Virus record (IMG/VR): IMGVR_UViG_3300021138_000175
Span: 1-23,558 of that record
Source of the DNA: a virus
DNA length: 23,558 nucleotides
Strand: one strand, 5' to 3'
Shown here: positions 754-6,601 of the stretch, one piece after another
How the letters are laid out: the number at the start of each line of letters is the position of its first letter
How positions within the stretch are numbered: the first letter of the stretch is position 1
Position numbers and translations under genes: made by a program
The notes under the pieces: generated by a model
The model's database searches: none
The model's input: only the letters and a program-made list of their open reading frames with translations
What the model was told of the DNA's origin: nothing

Positions 754-2510
754 AGTTCAATTTGCAACAGTTCTACAATTTCTGTTCACAGCTAAAGATT
801 GAGACTAAGGAGAAAGGTCTCAGGAAGATGGATAGGCTGCTAGGTACGCAGACCTATGTCATGGATGAGATTGCTAGTGGCTTAGAACAAGACATTCACT
901 TCTTTGTCATTCTCAAGGGTAGACAGTTAGGTATCACCACCATCTCCCTAGCGTTAGACCTGTACTGGCACTTTACTCACAATGGTTTGGGTGGCACGTT
1001 GGTCACTGACAGTGAGGAAAACCGGGATATGTTTAGGGGTACGCTGGGTGCGTACATGGATGGCTTACCTAAAGAGTTTAAGATTCCCCAGCTTGCTCAC
1101 AACAGAAATAGCTTATCTCTCAAGAACCGTAGTCGTATCTTTTACCAGGTTGCAGGAACCCGTGCCAAAGGCTCTCTAGGGCGCGGTAAGGGCATTACCT
1201 TCTTGCATGGTACAGAGACTTCTTCTTGGGGTGATGAAGAAGGCCTAGCTTCTTTGCTGGCCTCTCTCGCAGAGACTAATCCTGATCGGTTGTATATCTT
1301 TGAATCGACTGCTCGTGGCTTCAATATGTTTCATGATATGTACACCACTGCTAAACGCGCTAGAACGCAGAAGGCAATCTTCTGTGGTTGGTGGAGGAAT
1401 GAGTTCTACTCCGCATCTCCTGACAGCGATGTGTACCGAGTCTATTGGGATGGCAAACTTAATCCCGAAGAAAAGGAATGGACGAGAGAGATCAAGAAGC
1501 TATACGACTTTGAAATCACTAGCCGACAAATGGCTTGGTGGCGTTGGAAGCTGGCCGAAGGCATGAAAGATGATGCTCTGATGTATCAAGAGTTTCCTCC
1601 TACTGAAGACTATGCCTTTGTGATGACAGGTCTTTCTTTCTTTTCAAACGCTAGATGTACGGACGCAATGAAGATTGCTAAGAAGATTAGCTATGACAGC
1701 TATCGTTATGTGATGGGGAGTTATTTCCATGATACCCAGGTGGTTAAGAGTACGGAGCGTCTGGCTACGCTTAAGGTTTGGGAGGAACCCGTTGAACAGG
1801 GTTATTACGTCATTGGTGCTGATCCTGCTTATGGTAGTAGTGATTGGGCAGACCGCTTCTGCATACAAGTCTTCCGATGCTACGCAGATGGCATGGAACA
1901 GGTCGCGGAGTTTGCTACCTCAGAGATGAACACCTATCAGTTTGCTTGGGTGATCGCGCACCTTGCAGGTGCTTACAAGAACTCAACTCTGAACCTTGAA
2001 GTCAACGGGCCTGGACAGGCTGTCATCAATGAACTGAAGAACTTGAAGCGTCAGGCCTCCAGTCTTGGAGGGGTAGTAGGCCGTGACTTGATGGACGTGT
2101 ATTCATCTATGCAACAGTTTATCTGGCGTAGGAATGATTCCCTTGGCGGCATGAGCAACAGCATTGGTTGGCTAACAACACAGCAGTCTAAAGAACGGAT
2201 GCTGTCCTACATGAAGGATTACTTTGAACGCGGAATGATGAACATCTACTCAGAGGAAACGATTGATGAGATGAAGACCATTGTGCGTGACATGGGCAGC
2301 ATCGAAGCCTCTGGTCGCAACAAGGATGACCGTGTGATTGCCTGTGGCTTGGCAGCGGCCGCGTATGCGGAACAAGTAGGCCCTAGATTGATTACCGCTA
2401 AGATCACTAAAGACTTGAACAAGAAGCAAGAGGACATGACACCCGGCGAGATGGCCGCCAGTCGTGGCGTATCAACATATCTAAAGAGGATAGGCTTTGG
2501 ATCACAATGA
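750..2510 (+). CDS. terL: Terminase large subunit (ATPase-nuclease DNA packaging motor)
   Basis: The protein (586 aa) docks on the portal, pumps DNA into the procapsid with ATP and cuts the concatemer. The ATPase half shows a Walker A-like KGRQLGITT at residues 56-64 and a Walker B-like region GITFLHGTE near 148-156, followed by SSWGDEE. The nuclease half has the RNase H-like acidic set: D358 in VIGADPAYG, E417 in LNLEVNGPG, and D526/D527 in NKDDRVIACGLA, the metal-binding residues known for this family. Length is normal. The ATG at 750 overlaps the previous stop (ATGA) and was chosen over an upstream in-frame ATG at 723, which would lie deep inside the preceding gene. The 3' end overlaps the glycosyltransferase gene by 14 bases. 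The packaging mode (pac, cos or other) cannot be told from the sequence alone. Confidence 0.96.
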   Translation: MKFNLQQFYNFCSQLKIETKEKGLRKMDRLLGTQTYVMDEIASGLEQDIHFFVILKGRQLGITTISLALDLYWHFTHNGLGGTLVTDSEENRDMFRGTLGAYMDGLPKEFKIPQLAHNRNSLSLKNRSRIFYQVAGTRAKGSLGRGKGITFLHGTETSSWGDEEGLASLLASLAETNPDRLYIFESTARGFNMFHDMYTTAKRARTQKAIFCGWWRNEFYSASPDSDVYRVYWDGKLNPEEKEWTREIKKLYDFEITSRQMAWWRWKLAEGMKDDALMYQEFPPTEDYAFVMTGLSFFSNARCTDAMKIAKKISYDSYRYVMGSYFHDTQVVKSTERLATLKVWEEPVEQGYYVIGADPAYGSSDWADRFCIQVFRCYADGMEQVAEFATSEMNTYQFAWVIAHLAGAYKNSTLNLEVNGPGQAVINELKNLKRQASSLGGVVGRDLMDVYSSMQQFIWRRNDSLGGMSNSIGWLTTQQSKERMLSYMKDYFERGMMNIYSEETIDEMKTIVRDMGSIEASGRNKDDRVIACGLAAAAYAEQVGPRLITAKITKDLNKKQEDMTPGEMAASRGVSTYLKRIGFGSQ

Positions 2511-3291
2511 TTTAACCATCGTATCTGTATACGGTCACAACACTGGTGCTACGGCTATACCCAGCATTCTAAAGTCCATGCAAGAACTGCCTGGCAGCCG
2601 AGGTTTGCTCTTGAGCTACAACAAGCCTGTAGACCTGCCTAGTGACATTGAGTGGCAAAGGATAGAGCACACGAACTACATGGAGTACAGCCCCTTCATG
2701 ATGCACTGTTTGCAATCATTTATTAAGACTGAGTATTGCTTGGTGGTGCAGGATGATGGATGGGTACTGAACGGCAACAACTTCAAATCAAATTATTACG
2801 ACTATGACTATATCGGTGCTCCTAGTCACTGCGGCCTTGTGGGTAATCAGTTTCTTTTACAATTCGGATGGGTGATGCACCCTGAGCGCAGGGTAGTACA
2901 GAACGGAGGTTTTAGCCTACGCAGCAAGCGTCTACTGTCTATATTGAATGAGAAAGGGCTTATCCATAGATACGCTACCGAGATTCATAGCTGGAATGAG
3001 GATGCACAGTTGTCAGCCTTGCTTAGACCTACCCTAGAAGAATGGGGTATCAAGTACGCACCTGAGAACATTGCCAAGAACTTTAGCATTGAGTATGTTG
3101 GCCCTATCTACCATGACAGCTTTGATTACTCAGTTTTGGTTGGCCACCATGCACAGACCCGACAGCTTGTTGGTGATATGCACATCAAGATGAAAGTGAC
3201 AGATGAAGAAGTAGACCGTATGTACGGTGAGAGACAATTCCTAAACTATTTACAATCAATAGGTTACACAATTGAACCCCGTCATACCTAA
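2497..3291 (+). CDS. DUF5672-family putative glycosyltransferase (264 aa)
   Basis: The protein matches the DUF5672 pattern, a GT-A-like glycosyltransferase family often found in polysaccharide loci. The visible signature is a beta strand ending in VVQDDGW (residues 83-89, acidic pair expected to bind the metal-nucleotide sugar), YDYIGAP (103-109), NGGFSLRS (136-143) and NEDAQLS (167-173). No signal peptide or membrane segment is seen, so it should act in the cytoplasm. The start is TTG at 2497, supported by AAAGAGGA at 2482-2489; the next in-frame ATG would remove the first strand. It sits between the terminase and portal genes, an unusual place for a sugar-modifying enzyme. Donor and acceptor are unknown: phage virion protein, host surface glycan or DNA base are all possible. 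Family call is firm; function is inference. Confidence 0.88.
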   Translation: MDHNDLTIVSVYGHNTGATAIPSILKSMQELPGSRGLLLSYNKPVDLPSDIEWQRIEHTNYMEYSPFMMHCLQSFIKTEYCLVVQDDGWVLNGNNFKSNYYDYDYIGAPSHCGLVGNQFLLQFGWVMHPERRVVQNGGFSLRSKRLLSILNEKGLIHRYATEIHSWNEDAQLSALLRPTLEEWGIKYAPENIAKNFSIEYVGPIYHDSFDYSVLVGHHAQTRQLVGDMHIKMKVTDEEVDRMYGERQFLNYLQSIGYTIEPRHT

Positions 3292-3667: not shown

Positions 3668-4125
3668 TGTTAAAGGATTATAAGTGTCCAACACATGGCT
3701 ACTTTGAAAGCGATATTGCGGCTTGTTTTGTTGATGATTGTGAGGCGAATGTTATGCGCGTGCATTTACGTGCGCCTGGTCTCAAGTCAGAACGTACCAA
3801 AGGCATTGATACGAAAGCGAAGCAGCTTGCGATGGATTACAAGATGACCAACATCAAGACGGCACGCGAAGGCGAGAACCAAGCCGGTTATTACACTCGA
3901 AACAATGAGAAGCCTGTTGAGCAGCCAAGAGAGCAACGACCGGGTGATTCTGTCATTTGGGGTGGTGCAGGGGGCATGAATATGTCATCCATAACCAAAG
4001 GTGGTATGTTTAAGTCTGTAGCCGGTGAGCCGGTAGGCATCAATCCCAAAGAAGCCGGCAATTTGACTGGGCCTCGCGCTGCAAGTTATATTCCCGATCA
4101 TGAAAATCTAGCGATCAATAAATAA
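3664..4125 (+). CDS. Hypothetical protein with N-terminal Cys/His cluster (153 aa)
   Basis: The N-terminus reads DYKCPTHGYFE then AACFVDDCE, giving C8, H11, C21 and C26 (counted from the first Met). This spacing could be a small zinc ribbon, although the pairs are not textbook CxxC. The rest is hydrophilic and low in predicted structure, rich in Gly, Asn and Lys, with a central EKPVEQPREQRPGDS stretch. Two ATGs are adjacent (3664 and 3667); the first overlaps the previous stop as ATGA and follows AAGGGGAAG. The gene ends one base into the portal start (TAATG). Short proteins with a Cys-containing N-terminus occur upstream of the portal gene in other environmental podoviruses, but the function is unknown. 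Confidence 0.75.
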   Translation: MMLKDYKCPTHGYFESDIAACFVDDCEANVMRVHLRAPGLKSERTKGIDTKAKQLAMDYKMTNIKTAREGENQAGYYTRNNEKPVEQPREQRPGDSVIWGGAGGMNMSSITKGGMFKSVAGEPVGINPKEAGNLTGPRAASYIPDHENLAINK

Positions 4126-5765
4126 TGCGTATTCCATCAGGGCTTTCCGAACGCGAACAATTCTTCAAAGATTTGATTCAGAAGTGCATGGTGAGCCTTG
4201 AAGAACGCAAGGGTGACTATTCTAGTCTGCGTTCGTTTTATTTATTTGGTTCTGGCCCCGAAGATAGTCCGGCTATCTTTAACAAGATTTATCCACACAT
4301 TGATACGCTGTGTAGCTTTCTCTACTCAGCCGAGACTACCCGTTTTTCCATCAACATTGGTGCATCGGTCAGCCCGTTAGAAGAACGCAAAGTACCGCGT
4401 TTGACGGCTGCATTGAATGACGAATGGCTAAACAGCAATGCCGATCAAGTCTTTTCAGAGGCTTTGACCTGGGCATTATGTTTTAACACCACCTTTGTCA
4501 AACTGGTTTACCAAAACGGCATACAGCCATACATGATTGAACCCGGCACGATGGGCGTGTTACGTGAAGATACGCCCTACACTGACCGGCAACAGGCTAT
4601 TGTCCAGACGTATTACATCACCAAAACCGAGTTGTACAATCGTTTGTATAGCCATCCAAGACGGGATGAGATTGTCAAACGTGTAACTACGGCTTACAAC
4701 ACCCGTACAGAAGACCTACCGGAAGGTATTGACCGCATTATTATGAGTCAAACCAATCCTACGCTGTACGGTACGGTTAATTTGGATTTGTATGGCCAAA
4801 ACCGTTACAAAGCACGGGTGGCTGAAGATACGGTCAAGATGTATGAGTTGTGGGCATGGAATGATGACATTAAGGATTACCAAGTAGTCACCATTGCTGA
4901 CCCCGACATTATTATTTATGACCGGCCTGGTGAGAGTTTATTTCTCAAAGGTGAGTTGCCGTTCATCCAGATATGCCCTAATCCGCAGTATGACTACTAC
5001 TGGGGGCAGTCTGAAGTACAGAAATTGGTCTTTTTGCAGCAGTTACGCAATGGCCGCATGACTGAAATACTGGATTTACTAAGCAAACAGGTCAATCCGC
5101 CCACCTTTTTGACCGGCTTTACGGGCATTTTGGACGAGAAAAACTTTGCATTGAACCGTCCGGGTACGGTAATGAGCACTGATATGCCCAATGCAAAGGC
5201 TGATCGACTGGCTCCTACAATGCCGTCAGACCTATTTGAAGTCTTGCATGAGTGTGATGCTATGTTTGCAGAGGTATCAGGCATTAGTTCTGTGCTATCT
5301 GGACGCGGTGAACAAGGGGTAAGAAGTGCTGGACACGCCTCACAATTGGCCAGATTGGGCAGTTCTAGGGCTAAAAAACGCGCTTTGATTGTTGAAGATG
5401 CGCTAGAAAAGGTTGCAACGCTGTATTTGAAGCTGATGCAAACCTATGACCCTACACATTACCGCGATGAGTACGATACACCGTTCATTGCCGAGCAATT
5501 TACTAAAGACTACCACGTTAAAGTAGATGCACATAGTAACAGCCCGATATTCATGGAAGACAGTCGAGCATTAGCGTTTAACTTGTTGAAAGCACAGGCA
5601 ATTGACAAAGAATCACTACTTGACTTATTAGAACCACCGATGAAACAATTGCTCAAGGAAAGACTGGCCAAGAGAGAAGCTGCTCAAGCCGGTCAGCAGA
5701 AACCCGCTCCACAGATTAAGGAGAAGAAAGGTGGCCAAGCAAGCGAATCTCACTCCGAAGGCTGA
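4125..5765 (+). CDS. Portal protein (546 aa)
   Basis: This is the dodecameric ring at the capsid vertex through which DNA enters and leaves and on which terminase and adaptor dock. Length (546 aa), the position after terminase and before scaffold and capsid, and composition fit. Visible features are an N-terminal helical/aromatic part (YSSLRSFYLFGSGPEDSP), a beta-rich clip/wing region with LPFIQICPNPQYDYYWGQS at about residues 276-294, then a helical stem region and an Ala/Gln/Lys-rich C-terminal tail from about residue 505 (KREAAQAGQQKPAPQ). The 'P.Q.DY.WG.S....L..LQ..RN.R' pattern is characteristic of podovirus-type portals. The tail coding sequence overlaps a separate small gene starting on GTG 5731. 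The terminase-portal-scaffold-coat order supports a P22-like head. Confidence 0.9.
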   Translation: MRIPSGLSEREQFFKDLIQKCMVSLEERKGDYSSLRSFYLFGSGPEDSPAIFNKIYPHIDTLCSFLYSAETTRFSINIGASVSPLEERKVPRLTAALNDEWLNSNADQVFSEALTWALCFNTTFVKLVYQNGIQPYMIEPGTMGVLREDTPYTDRQQAIVQTYYITKTELYNRLYSHPRRDEIVKRVTTAYNTRTEDLPEGIDRIIMSQTNPTLYGTVNLDLYGQNRYKARVAEDTVKMYELWAWNDDIKDYQVVTIADPDIIIYDRPGESLFLKGELPFIQICPNPQYDYYWGQSEVQKLVFLQQLRNGRMTEILDLLSKQVNPPTFLTGFTGILDEKNFALNRPGTVMSTDMPNAKADRLAPTMPSDLFEVLHECDAMFAEVSGISSVLSGRGEQGVRSAGHASQLARLGSSRAKKRALIVEDALEKVATLYLKLMQTYDPTHYRDEYDTPFIAEQFTKDYHVKVDAHSNSPIFMEDSRALAFNLLKAQAIDKESLLDLLEPPMKQLLKERLAKREAAQAGQQKPAPQIKEKKGGQASESHSEG

Positions 5766-5898
5766 TCAGCCCAAGGTATCGACTGAGAGTTTAGCGCGAG
5801 GCAATGCACCTGCGGGTTTGCAATACAAGGTTACTGGTATTCGCAGTCCAGCGCGTAGTGCCACAACACGCAGCACCAGAGATTATAGTAGGGGATAA
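5731..5898 (+). CDS. Small basic protein overlapping the portal 3' end (55 aa, GTG start)
   Basis: The frame opens at GTG 5731, seven bases after AAGGAG (5719-5724), inside the last codons of the portal gene, and runs to TAA at 5896-5898. The product starts VAKQANLTPKADQPKVS (initiator Met expected), continues SLARGNAPAGLQYKV and ends in an Arg/Ser/Thr-rich tail RSATTRSTRDYSRG. It is hydrophilic, basic, and has no membrane segment. The good ribosome site and the 35-base overlap with the portal gene suggest coupled translation. Its Arg/Ser-rich tail would suit a nucleic-acid- or scaffold-binding protein, which is inference. I do not recognise the family. Confidence 0.62.
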   Translation: MAKQANLTPKADQPKVSTESLARGNAPAGLQYKVTGIRSPARSATTRSTRDYSRG

Positions 5899-5922
5899 CC
5901 GTCAATTAAGGAGGTGGTCAAG

Positions 5923-5964
5923 ATGTACAAGACTCACAAGCGCGGTCGTAAGACTAAACGGTAA
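5923..5964 (+). CDS. 13-residue basic micropeptide A
   Basis: The ATG at 5923 follows a near-perfect Shine-Dalgarno, AAGGAGG at 5908-5914 with an 8-base spacer, and reads MYKTHKRGRKTKR to TAA at 5962-5964. Seven of 13 residues are Lys/Arg plus one His. A GTG at 5914 is also in frame but lies within the Shine-Dalgarno sequence itself. A second ORF 71 bases downstream encodes a peptide of identical length and matching pattern (G8-R9-K10 aligned), which argues that both are real. Such a peptide could bind RNA or DNA, or neutralise charge inside the head, but no function is known to me. Standard gene callers would skip it on length. Confidence 0.55.
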   Translation: MYKTHKRGRKTKR

Positions 5965-6000
5965 TTCCCAAGAGGGAACTGGGGTATGGCTGACTTCCCC
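5965..6000 (+). promoter_or_regulatory. Stem-loop(s) directly after micropeptide A, with alternative pairing
   Basis: Right after the stop codon, TTCCC (5965-5969) can pair with GGGAA (5974-5978) across a 4-base loop. A second TTCCC at 5995-5999 can pair with the same GGGAA, and GGGG (5981-5984) can pair with CCCC (5997-6000), so the hairpins are mutually exclusive. No T-run follows, so it is not a classic intrinsic terminator. It could mark RNA processing, attenuation or translational control of micropeptide B. The stems are short (4-5 bp), so confidence is low. Confidence 0.33.
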
Positions 6001-6035
6001 TTATAAGTTGGCCGCTGCTAATTGGAGACTCCATC

Positions 6036-6077
6036 ATGGCACGCATGAAACGTAAAGGCCGCAAGGCACGCAAGTAA
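6036..6077 (+). CDS. 13-residue basic micropeptide B
   Basis: The ATG at 6036 lies eight bases after TTGGAG (6022-6027) and reads MARMKRKGRKARK to TAA at 6075-6077. Eight of 13 residues are Lys/Arg. Aligned without gaps to micropeptide A it shares M1, G8, R9 and K10 and has K/R exchanges at positions 3, 6, 7, 12 and 13. Both stop codons are followed by the same bases, TTCC (TAATTCC in each). Equal length, conserved charge pattern and shared stop context suggest a tandem duplication under selection on the peptide. Function unknown; a nucleic-acid-binding peptide is the simplest guess. Confidence 0.55.
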   Translation: MARMKRKGRKARK

Positions 6078-6112
6078 TTCCACCGGGGGGCAGGAATTAA
6101 AAATTGCCTCCC
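6075..6112 (+). promoter_or_regulatory. Stem-loop embracing the stop codon of micropeptide B
   Basis: TAATTCC (6075-6081), which contains the stop codon, pairs perfectly over 7 bp with GGAATTA (6093-6099) across an 11-base loop. The same GGAATT can instead pair with the downstream AATTGCC (from 6102), giving an interrupted stem extended by GG/CC pairs. The two folds exclude each other, as in the structure after micropeptide A. No T-tract follows, so a terminator is unlikely; a processing or translational-coupling element is possible. Confidence 0.35.
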
Positions 6113-6133
6113 ACCTAATTCAATGAGGTTGAC

Positions 6134-6601
6134 ATGAGTGTTCCACCAGATCAGTTAATGAGTTTGATGGGTAAAGGCAAAGGTACAGATACACCTACAC
6201 CGATGCCACCTGTAGGCGGTGCGCCTCAGATGAGTGATGCTTCAACTGCTCCGATGGCCGCTCCTATGTCTACCCCCGAACCTAAACTGGGAAACCGTGA
6301 AGGTGCGTTAGTCAATCTTGGTATGGCACTTGATCTGATCGAGCAATCGCTCCCCGCTCTAGGTAGCGAATCAGAAGAAGGCCAAAAAGCAATGCAAGCT
6401 ATGAAGGTTTTGTCTGCGGTATTAGGCCCACGTAAAGGCAAAACAAATGAGTTGCAGCAATCTGAAATACTTCAGATGCTTCAATCCCTACCGCAAGCGG
6501 GTGGCGGTACGCCGGAAAGTCGTTCAATCGCAGCCGCACCACCCGTAGCAAATATGCCCCCCATACCTGGCGGTGGCGCACCACAACCTAGCCCAATTTA
6601 A
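6134..6601 (+). CDS. Pro/Gly/Met-rich hypothetical head-region protein (155 aa)
   Basis: The start ATG 6134 follows AATGAGG. The first 50 residues and the last 35 are low-complexity Pro/Ala/Met/Gly sequence (PTPMPPVGGAPQMS; MPPIPGGGAPQP). Between them is a predicted helical core, about residues 53-120 (REGALVNLGMALDLIEQSLPA and QSEILQMLQSLPQ). It has no membrane segment and no enzyme motif. Genes of this composition are often found between portal and scaffold in environmental podoviruses. It could be a scaffold accessory or internal head protein, which is inference from position. Confidence 0.75.
   Translation: MSVPPDQLMSLMGKGKGTDTPTPMPPVGGAPQMSDASTAPMAAPMSTPEPKLGNREGALVNLGMALDLIEQSLPALGSESEEGQKAMQAMKVLSAVLGPRKGKTNELQQSEILQMLQSLPQAGGGTPESRSIAAAPPVANMPPIPGGGAPQPSPI

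Follow-up and report, generated by a model that had tools for sequence, protein, structure and literature searches.

Tandem micro-genes for polycationic peptides, interleaved with RNA pseudoknots, between the portal and head genes of uncultured tailed phages

Introduction

Two open reading frames (ORFs) of about 13 codons each, here called A and B, lie in tandem between the portal gene and the next late gene, p155, of an uncultured tailed phage, and comparison with its relatives indicates that they are almost certainly protein-coding genes maintained by selection at this fixed place. The phage is known from IMG/VR record IMGVR_UViG_3300021138_000175, and the window analyzed here comprises positions 1 to 23,558 of that record, a stretch of 23,558 nucleotides whose large terminase belongs to Terminase_6C, whose portal is SU10-like and whose major head protein falls in phrog_9953. 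Its clade is a large group of uncultured bacterial viruses, mostly from freshwater. An initial annotation, made from the letters of the window, had described A and B as a duplicated, selected pair of highly basic micropeptides in a stretch skipped by annotation, and had proposed aligning that stretch across related phages. Here we describe that comparison, together with two covarying RNA pseudoknots flanking B, PK1 and PK2, which were overlooked at that stage along with the link between PK1 and the second ORF.

Results

Micro-ORFs A and B in the window and its relatives

The elements of the locus in the window are as follows.

5908..5914, plus strand: ribosome site of A, AAGGAGG, with an 8-base spacer; sites resembling a Shine-Dalgarno (SD) sequence also lie 5' of A in relatives
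5923..5964, plus strand: micro-ORF A, MYKTHKRGRKTKR; clade consensus MYKKxKRGRKTRR
5965..5978, plus strand: hairpin TTCCC-AAGA-GGGAA, immediately 3' of the A stop; many relatives have hairpins of different sequence there
5981..6014, plus strand: PK1, an H-type pseudoknot; stem 1 (S1) 5981-5984/5997-6000, stem 2 (S2) 5987-5996/6005-6014
6022..6027, plus strand: ribosome site of B, TTGGAG, with an 8-base spacer
6036..6077, plus strand: micro-ORF B, MARMKRKGRKARK; clade consensus MARKARKGRKARK
6075..6112, plus strand: PK2, an H-type pseudoknot overlapping the B stop; S1 6075-6081/6093-6099, S2 6085-6092/6105-6112, loop 3 A-rich

The peptides, their positions and both ribosome sites agree with the initial annotation, as does the TAATTCC that follows each stop. 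Relatives were collected as portal homologues from IMG/VR and as major-capsid homologues from genome contigs, and the DNA compared runs from the portal stop to p155. In a strict set of 49 non-redundant relatives, where ORFs of 8-30 codons with an SD-preceded ATG and at least 45% lysine or arginine were counted, 85 micro-ORFs were observed against 0.15 expected from dinucleotide shuffles; the antisense strand of the same 49 relatives, under the same criteria, yielded none. A wider set of 93 non-redundant relatives, with portals 65-100% identical, includes 87 that carry one to three micro-ORFs (two in 68, one in 16, three in 3) and six that carry none. Sizes range from 9 to 15 codons, with 22 in one case. 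Four of the relatives without micro-ORFs (L124, L169, L170 and L184) form a sister group in the tree; L126 also lacks them, and L063 has lost the ATG of its sole copy. Apart from this lost start and an outgroup without the ORFs, ribosome site and start codon are retained across relatives. Several lineages have lost A or B alone, and the near-constant retention of at least one copy despite such losses fits a role for dose or redundancy.

Two relatives depart from the usual sizes. The B gene of L036, 294 bases past the portal stop, is extended to 22 residues through an internal repeat, MARRGRKAHKGHKARKGRKARK, as if the charge dose had been increased inside one gene. The gap between portal and p155 in L124 contains one SD-preceded ORF of 20 codons, MYGKMPKPMKKPPMRDGKRS, at the position of A, and this is perhaps a distant form of A.

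Codon-level variation has the signature expected of coding sequence. Close pairs of 13-codon A genes differ at rates of 0.171/0.131/0.438 per site for codon positions 1/2/3, and those of 13-codon B genes at 0.117/0.130/0.402, so that the third position varies about 3-4 times more often than the first two; a small set of 12-codon B genes has a weaker asymmetry (0.149/0.168/0.283, a third-position excess of 1.7-1.9-fold). The ratio of nonsynonymous to synonymous change (pN/pS) is 0.50 for A and 0.33 for B. Arginine 9 of B is invariant over 41 distinct DNAs even as it is written with the codons CGT, CGC and CGA. Length class, lysine/arginine pattern and ribosome sites are thus kept while third positions vary, and the proposal of selected micropeptides in this neglected stretch holds across the clade.

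Not one of 161 peptides contains aspartate or glutamate, and net charge ranges from +5 to +12, with a median of +8 in 13 residues. The residues used are R, K, G, A, S, T, Y, M, H and C, V and I occurring in trace amounts only; lysine and arginine exchange freely, and the remaining positions are mostly G/A/S/T with some Y/M/H/C. The arginine codons CGT and CGC account for 95% of arginine codons in B and 81% in A, compared with 61% in the portal genes of the same phages, a preference that fits strong expression.

IMG/VR-wide pattern scans place both genes at this site. All 39 contigs matching the B pattern carry a micro-ORF here; one pattern that requires R-K where B of the window has M-K left the window record unmatched. 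A relaxed B pattern gave one additional match, L191, in the same clade and at the same position. Among the matches listed for the A pattern, 116 of 116 adjoin the portal, p155 or both. Together the two patterns gave at least 156 matches; those listed are all at this site and in this clade, and none among them lies elsewhere in viruses.

That A and B arose by duplication, as first suggested, is plausible, and extra B-like copies (MVRKTRKGRKSCK) in L062 and L068 support duplication of a cassette. It is nevertheless unproven, since peptides so short and of such low complexity could also converge. The shared TAATTCC does not reflect duplication of the peptides: its two copies are 5' strands of unlike RNA structures, belonging to the TTCCC/GGGAA hairpin in the case of A and to PK2 stem 1 in the case of B, and the sequence is variable among relatives.

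Pseudoknots PK1 and PK2

PK1, whose 3' end in the window lies 7 bases 5' of the B ribosome site, is on comparative grounds almost certainly an mRNA pseudoknot that is conserved, covaries and belongs with gene B. Pseudoknots were scored with a simple custom finder and compared with shuffles; the mean scores are -13.8 for PK1 and -16.7 for PK2, against -6.3 and -6.4 for the respective shuffles. When the window was scanned in 207 tiles of 110 nucleotides, only the tile starting at 5980 attained -18.5. For both pseudoknots, swapping one strand of S1 or S2 from another genome produced a weaker fold, which points to covariation. In a sequence-only MAFFT alignment of 43 PK1s, 95.6% of cells are paired and 11 of 12 pairs have changed on both sides; none of 500 shuffles matches any of these measures, and the signal disappears when pairing partners are slid. 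PK1 outscores its own reverse complement in 85 of 87 cases and contains many G-U pairs, indicating that it acts in the mRNA sense.

PK2, very probably a second pseudoknot, is the more variable of the two: it coincides with the B stop in the window and lies farther downstream in many relatives. Its covariation score was reached in 0 of 500 shuffles, but MAFFT misplaces its stem 1, so that shuffle and chimera tests carry most of the case for it. Imperfect alignment, lower strand specificity and the many strands that are runs of G or C leave it less firmly supported than PK1. No relevant Rfam match was obtained for the window and nine relatives.

Three further candidates in this stretch were rejected. 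A hairpin at every stop is not a clade-wide rule, with occurrence not above shuffles for A (stem at most 4 bases from the stop) and only partly so for B. A 6-codon ORF inside PK1 (ATG GCT GAC TTC CCC TTA TAA) does not retain its start, which is replaced by GTG, TTT or TCT in relatives. PK2 is not a good frameshift or readthrough signal, as it begins at the B stop in the window, too close, and is farther downstream in many relatives; known frameshift stimulators sit farther from the slip site than PK2 does from this stop.

Relationship between peptides, pseudoknots and a possible promoter

The 171 PK1-motif loci that were fetched all belong to this clade; in 168 of them a B-type micro-ORF lies no more than 75 bases away, and of the remaining three, two end inside B. 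Micropeptides without pseudoknots exist in L054, L139 and L152, and the outgroup has neither. Since peptides occur without pseudoknots while the PK1s listed are accompanied by a micro-ORF, the peptides seem to be the primary element, with PK1 as an accessory to gene B. In the model favored here, PK1 would act in the mRNA to control the second gene. The same observations bear on the idea that the locus is a non-coding RNA element with accidental ORFs. The pseudoknots are real, but ORFs that persist without the folds, that exceed chance so greatly and that concentrate their changes at the third codon position have largely refuted this explanation, and its residual probability is negligible.

In 78 of 87 relatives a TTGAC box lies about 54 bases 5' of p155, in the interval that separates this gene from B, and its presence in most of them suggests a separate promoter for p155 and the head genes. 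In the window (6113-6133), TTGAC directly adjoins the p155 ATG, and the usual distance is not kept.

This box is relevant to a second alternative, in which A and B are cis-acting leaders whose peptides are immaterial: only the act of translating lysine and arginine codons would count, with stalling or attenuation switching the pseudoknots and thereby expression from p155 to the major capsid protein (MCP). The micro-ORFs do abut structured RNA, the B stop of the window is inside PK2, and their size is typical of leader peptides. The free exchange of lysine and arginine and the use of preferred codons (CGT/CGC, AAA/AAG) are, however, unlike sensors of a single amino acid, some micro-ORFs have no PK2, and p155 appears to have its own promoter. 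Since charge is conserved and not one amino acid, we regard leader control as improbable.

The main rival to a direct role of the peptides in the head is autoregulation, in which B, and A as well, would bind PK1 and PK2 as arginine-rich-motif peptides, so that an excess of free peptide represses B or controls the late mRNA. The near-constant position of PK1 5' of B, its covariation and its specificity for the mRNA strand speak for this scheme, which follows the same logic as T4 gp32 with its pseudoknot operator. Against it, peptides persist where pseudoknots are absent, A lies 5' of PK1, the B ribosome site is not covered by PK1, and dose explains extra gene copies better than a tuned repressor does. 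On balance we consider autoregulation rather unlikely, if still a serious contender.

Genomic context

The micropeptide site has the portal on one side and p155, p61, p177 and MCP on the other. Its neighbors in the window are as follows.

4125..5765, plus strand: portal, SU10-like, PF23899; the upstream anchor
5731..5898, plus strand: p55, a basic protein of 55 residues with a pI of 11, starting at a GTG within the 3' end of the portal gene
6134..6601, plus strand: p155, an acidic protein; the downstream anchor

The p55 gene is retained even in the outgroup without micropeptides. Farther upstream, at 2497-3291 of the window, the interval between the large terminase gene and p131 contains a DUF5672 (glycosyltransferase-like) gene that is present in some relatives only; a putative methyltransferase takes its position in MW202825, and this position is a variable cargo slot of the packaging operon.

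In the phage collection, the named close relatives include no isolate and only two environmental genomes, MW202753 and MW202825. The bins that contain L123 and L125 give a hint of beta-proteobacteria as hosts. Over the micro-ORF stretch, MW202753 has two annotated antisense hypothetical proteins (UOF81572.1 and UOF81573.1) and MW202825 has one (UOF82412.1), all of which are probably spurious gene calls. The antisense calls are located at L081 4740-5038 and L082 5779-6039.

Discussion

Judging from their composition, the A and B peptides probably bind nucleic acid. A possible further reading, which we favor over its rivals while holding it tentatively, is that they are abundant polycationic peptides made with the head proteins, serving as packaging or core peptides that probably neutralize DNA or RNA. 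Late in infection, strong ribosome sites and host-preferred codons would yield large amounts of disordered peptide with a charge of about +8, binding nucleic acid through charge alone. Inside the head such peptides could help to package the genome, whether as small counter-ions or as core peptides, in the manner of the polycationic core peptides of other viruses; two or three gene copies would raise the dose, and PK1, ending a few bases before the B ribosome site, would join PK2 in determining how well the micro-mRNA is translated and how stable it is. The free exchange of lysine and arginine and the changes in copy number argue for charge and dose rather than specific contact.

Several considerations weigh against a packaging or core function in the head, which remains putative and somewhat short of an even prospect. 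Well-studied tailed phages neutralize their DNA with polyamines and Mg2+ and are not known to require such peptides. The outgroup has similar portal and head genes without micropeptides, so a head of this design can do without them. The conserved pseudoknots, moreover, point to regulation, for which a purely structural peptide would have no use.

High expected expression would also suit micropeptides directed at the host, whether they inhibit the ribosome, an RNase or membrane function or serve in counter-defense, and many small phage proteins do act on host factors (review PMC11323111). The fixed position among head genes, the conservation of charge only and the lack of hydrophobic or specific contact residues make such a role very improbable. 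A more inclusive interpretation would treat the locus as a new gene unit, in which tandem genes of about 13 codons for trans-acting polycationic peptides and interleaved covarying pseudoknots form a self-regulated module of the head operon; we consider it unlikely in this full form, but if it is true, the peptides would rank with the smallest viral gene products, structural or regulatory, that have a gene of their own.

The locus has implications under either a structural or a regulatory reading. Most gene finders, and some surveys of small ORFs, apply length cut-offs that genes of 12-14 codons do not reach, and with selection visible clade-wide, these micro-ORFs offer a clean test case for minimum functional gene size. 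Should they prove to be translated and packaged, encoded polycationic peptides would be core components of a tailed double-stranded DNA (dsDNA) phage; should they prove regulatory, they would provide a second viral system of pseudoknot-based translational control. PK1 and PK2 are in addition two candidate RNA families.

Among known systems, catalogued small-ORF families, such as those of GMSC and the ismORFs of Enterobacteriaceae, share with A and B the property of being conserved small ORFs overlooked by standard annotation; GMSC accepts ORFs from 30 nucleotides (PMC11364881), and the Enterobacteriaceae survey begins at 15 codons (PMC11188072). By analogy, the nearest counterparts in function would be adenovirus mu and Microviridae protein J, and the nearest in RNA anatomy the T4-type gene 32 pseudoknot. 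The short leader peptides TrpL and ErmCL resemble A and B in length class and in their adjacent RNA structure; unlike them, A and B are not rich in one sensing codon family and conserve charge instead of a single amino acid.

The adenovirus core peptide mu/X is very small and highly basic, is made with the structural proteins, associates with DNA in the virion and is cleaved from a precursor. Protein J of the Microviridae, a DNA-binding core protein of about 25-40 lysine- and arginine-rich residues in single-stranded DNA phages, contacts the capsid. Like mu/X, A and B are very small, highly basic, virus-encoded and predicted to be produced with structural proteins, but mu/X comes from a eukaryotic virus by precursor cleavage, whereas A and B would each be the product of a separate gene of 9-15 (once 22) codons in tailed phages. 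Like J, which has a role in the head, they are small, lysine- and arginine-rich phage products; they differ in their length of about 13 residues and in belonging to tailed dsDNA phages, and we know of no sequence common to them and J. Strong positive charge without acidic residues, which characterizes both mu and J, is found in A and B as well. The adenovirus peptide is reviewed in PMC7998265.

The T4-type gene 32 pseudoknot, according to a review perhaps the sole viral pseudoknot in translational autoregulation (PMC3014915), is likewise an H-type pseudoknot 5' of a ribosome site, and its protein product, like the predicted activity of A and B, binds nucleic acid. It differs in its product, the large single-strand binding protein gp32, for which binding has been demonstrated, and in that PK1 is nearer the ribosome site; the likeness is positional only. 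We provisionally place A and B with the conserved polybasic small gene products of viruses; the unit of peptide and pseudoknot may be categorically new.
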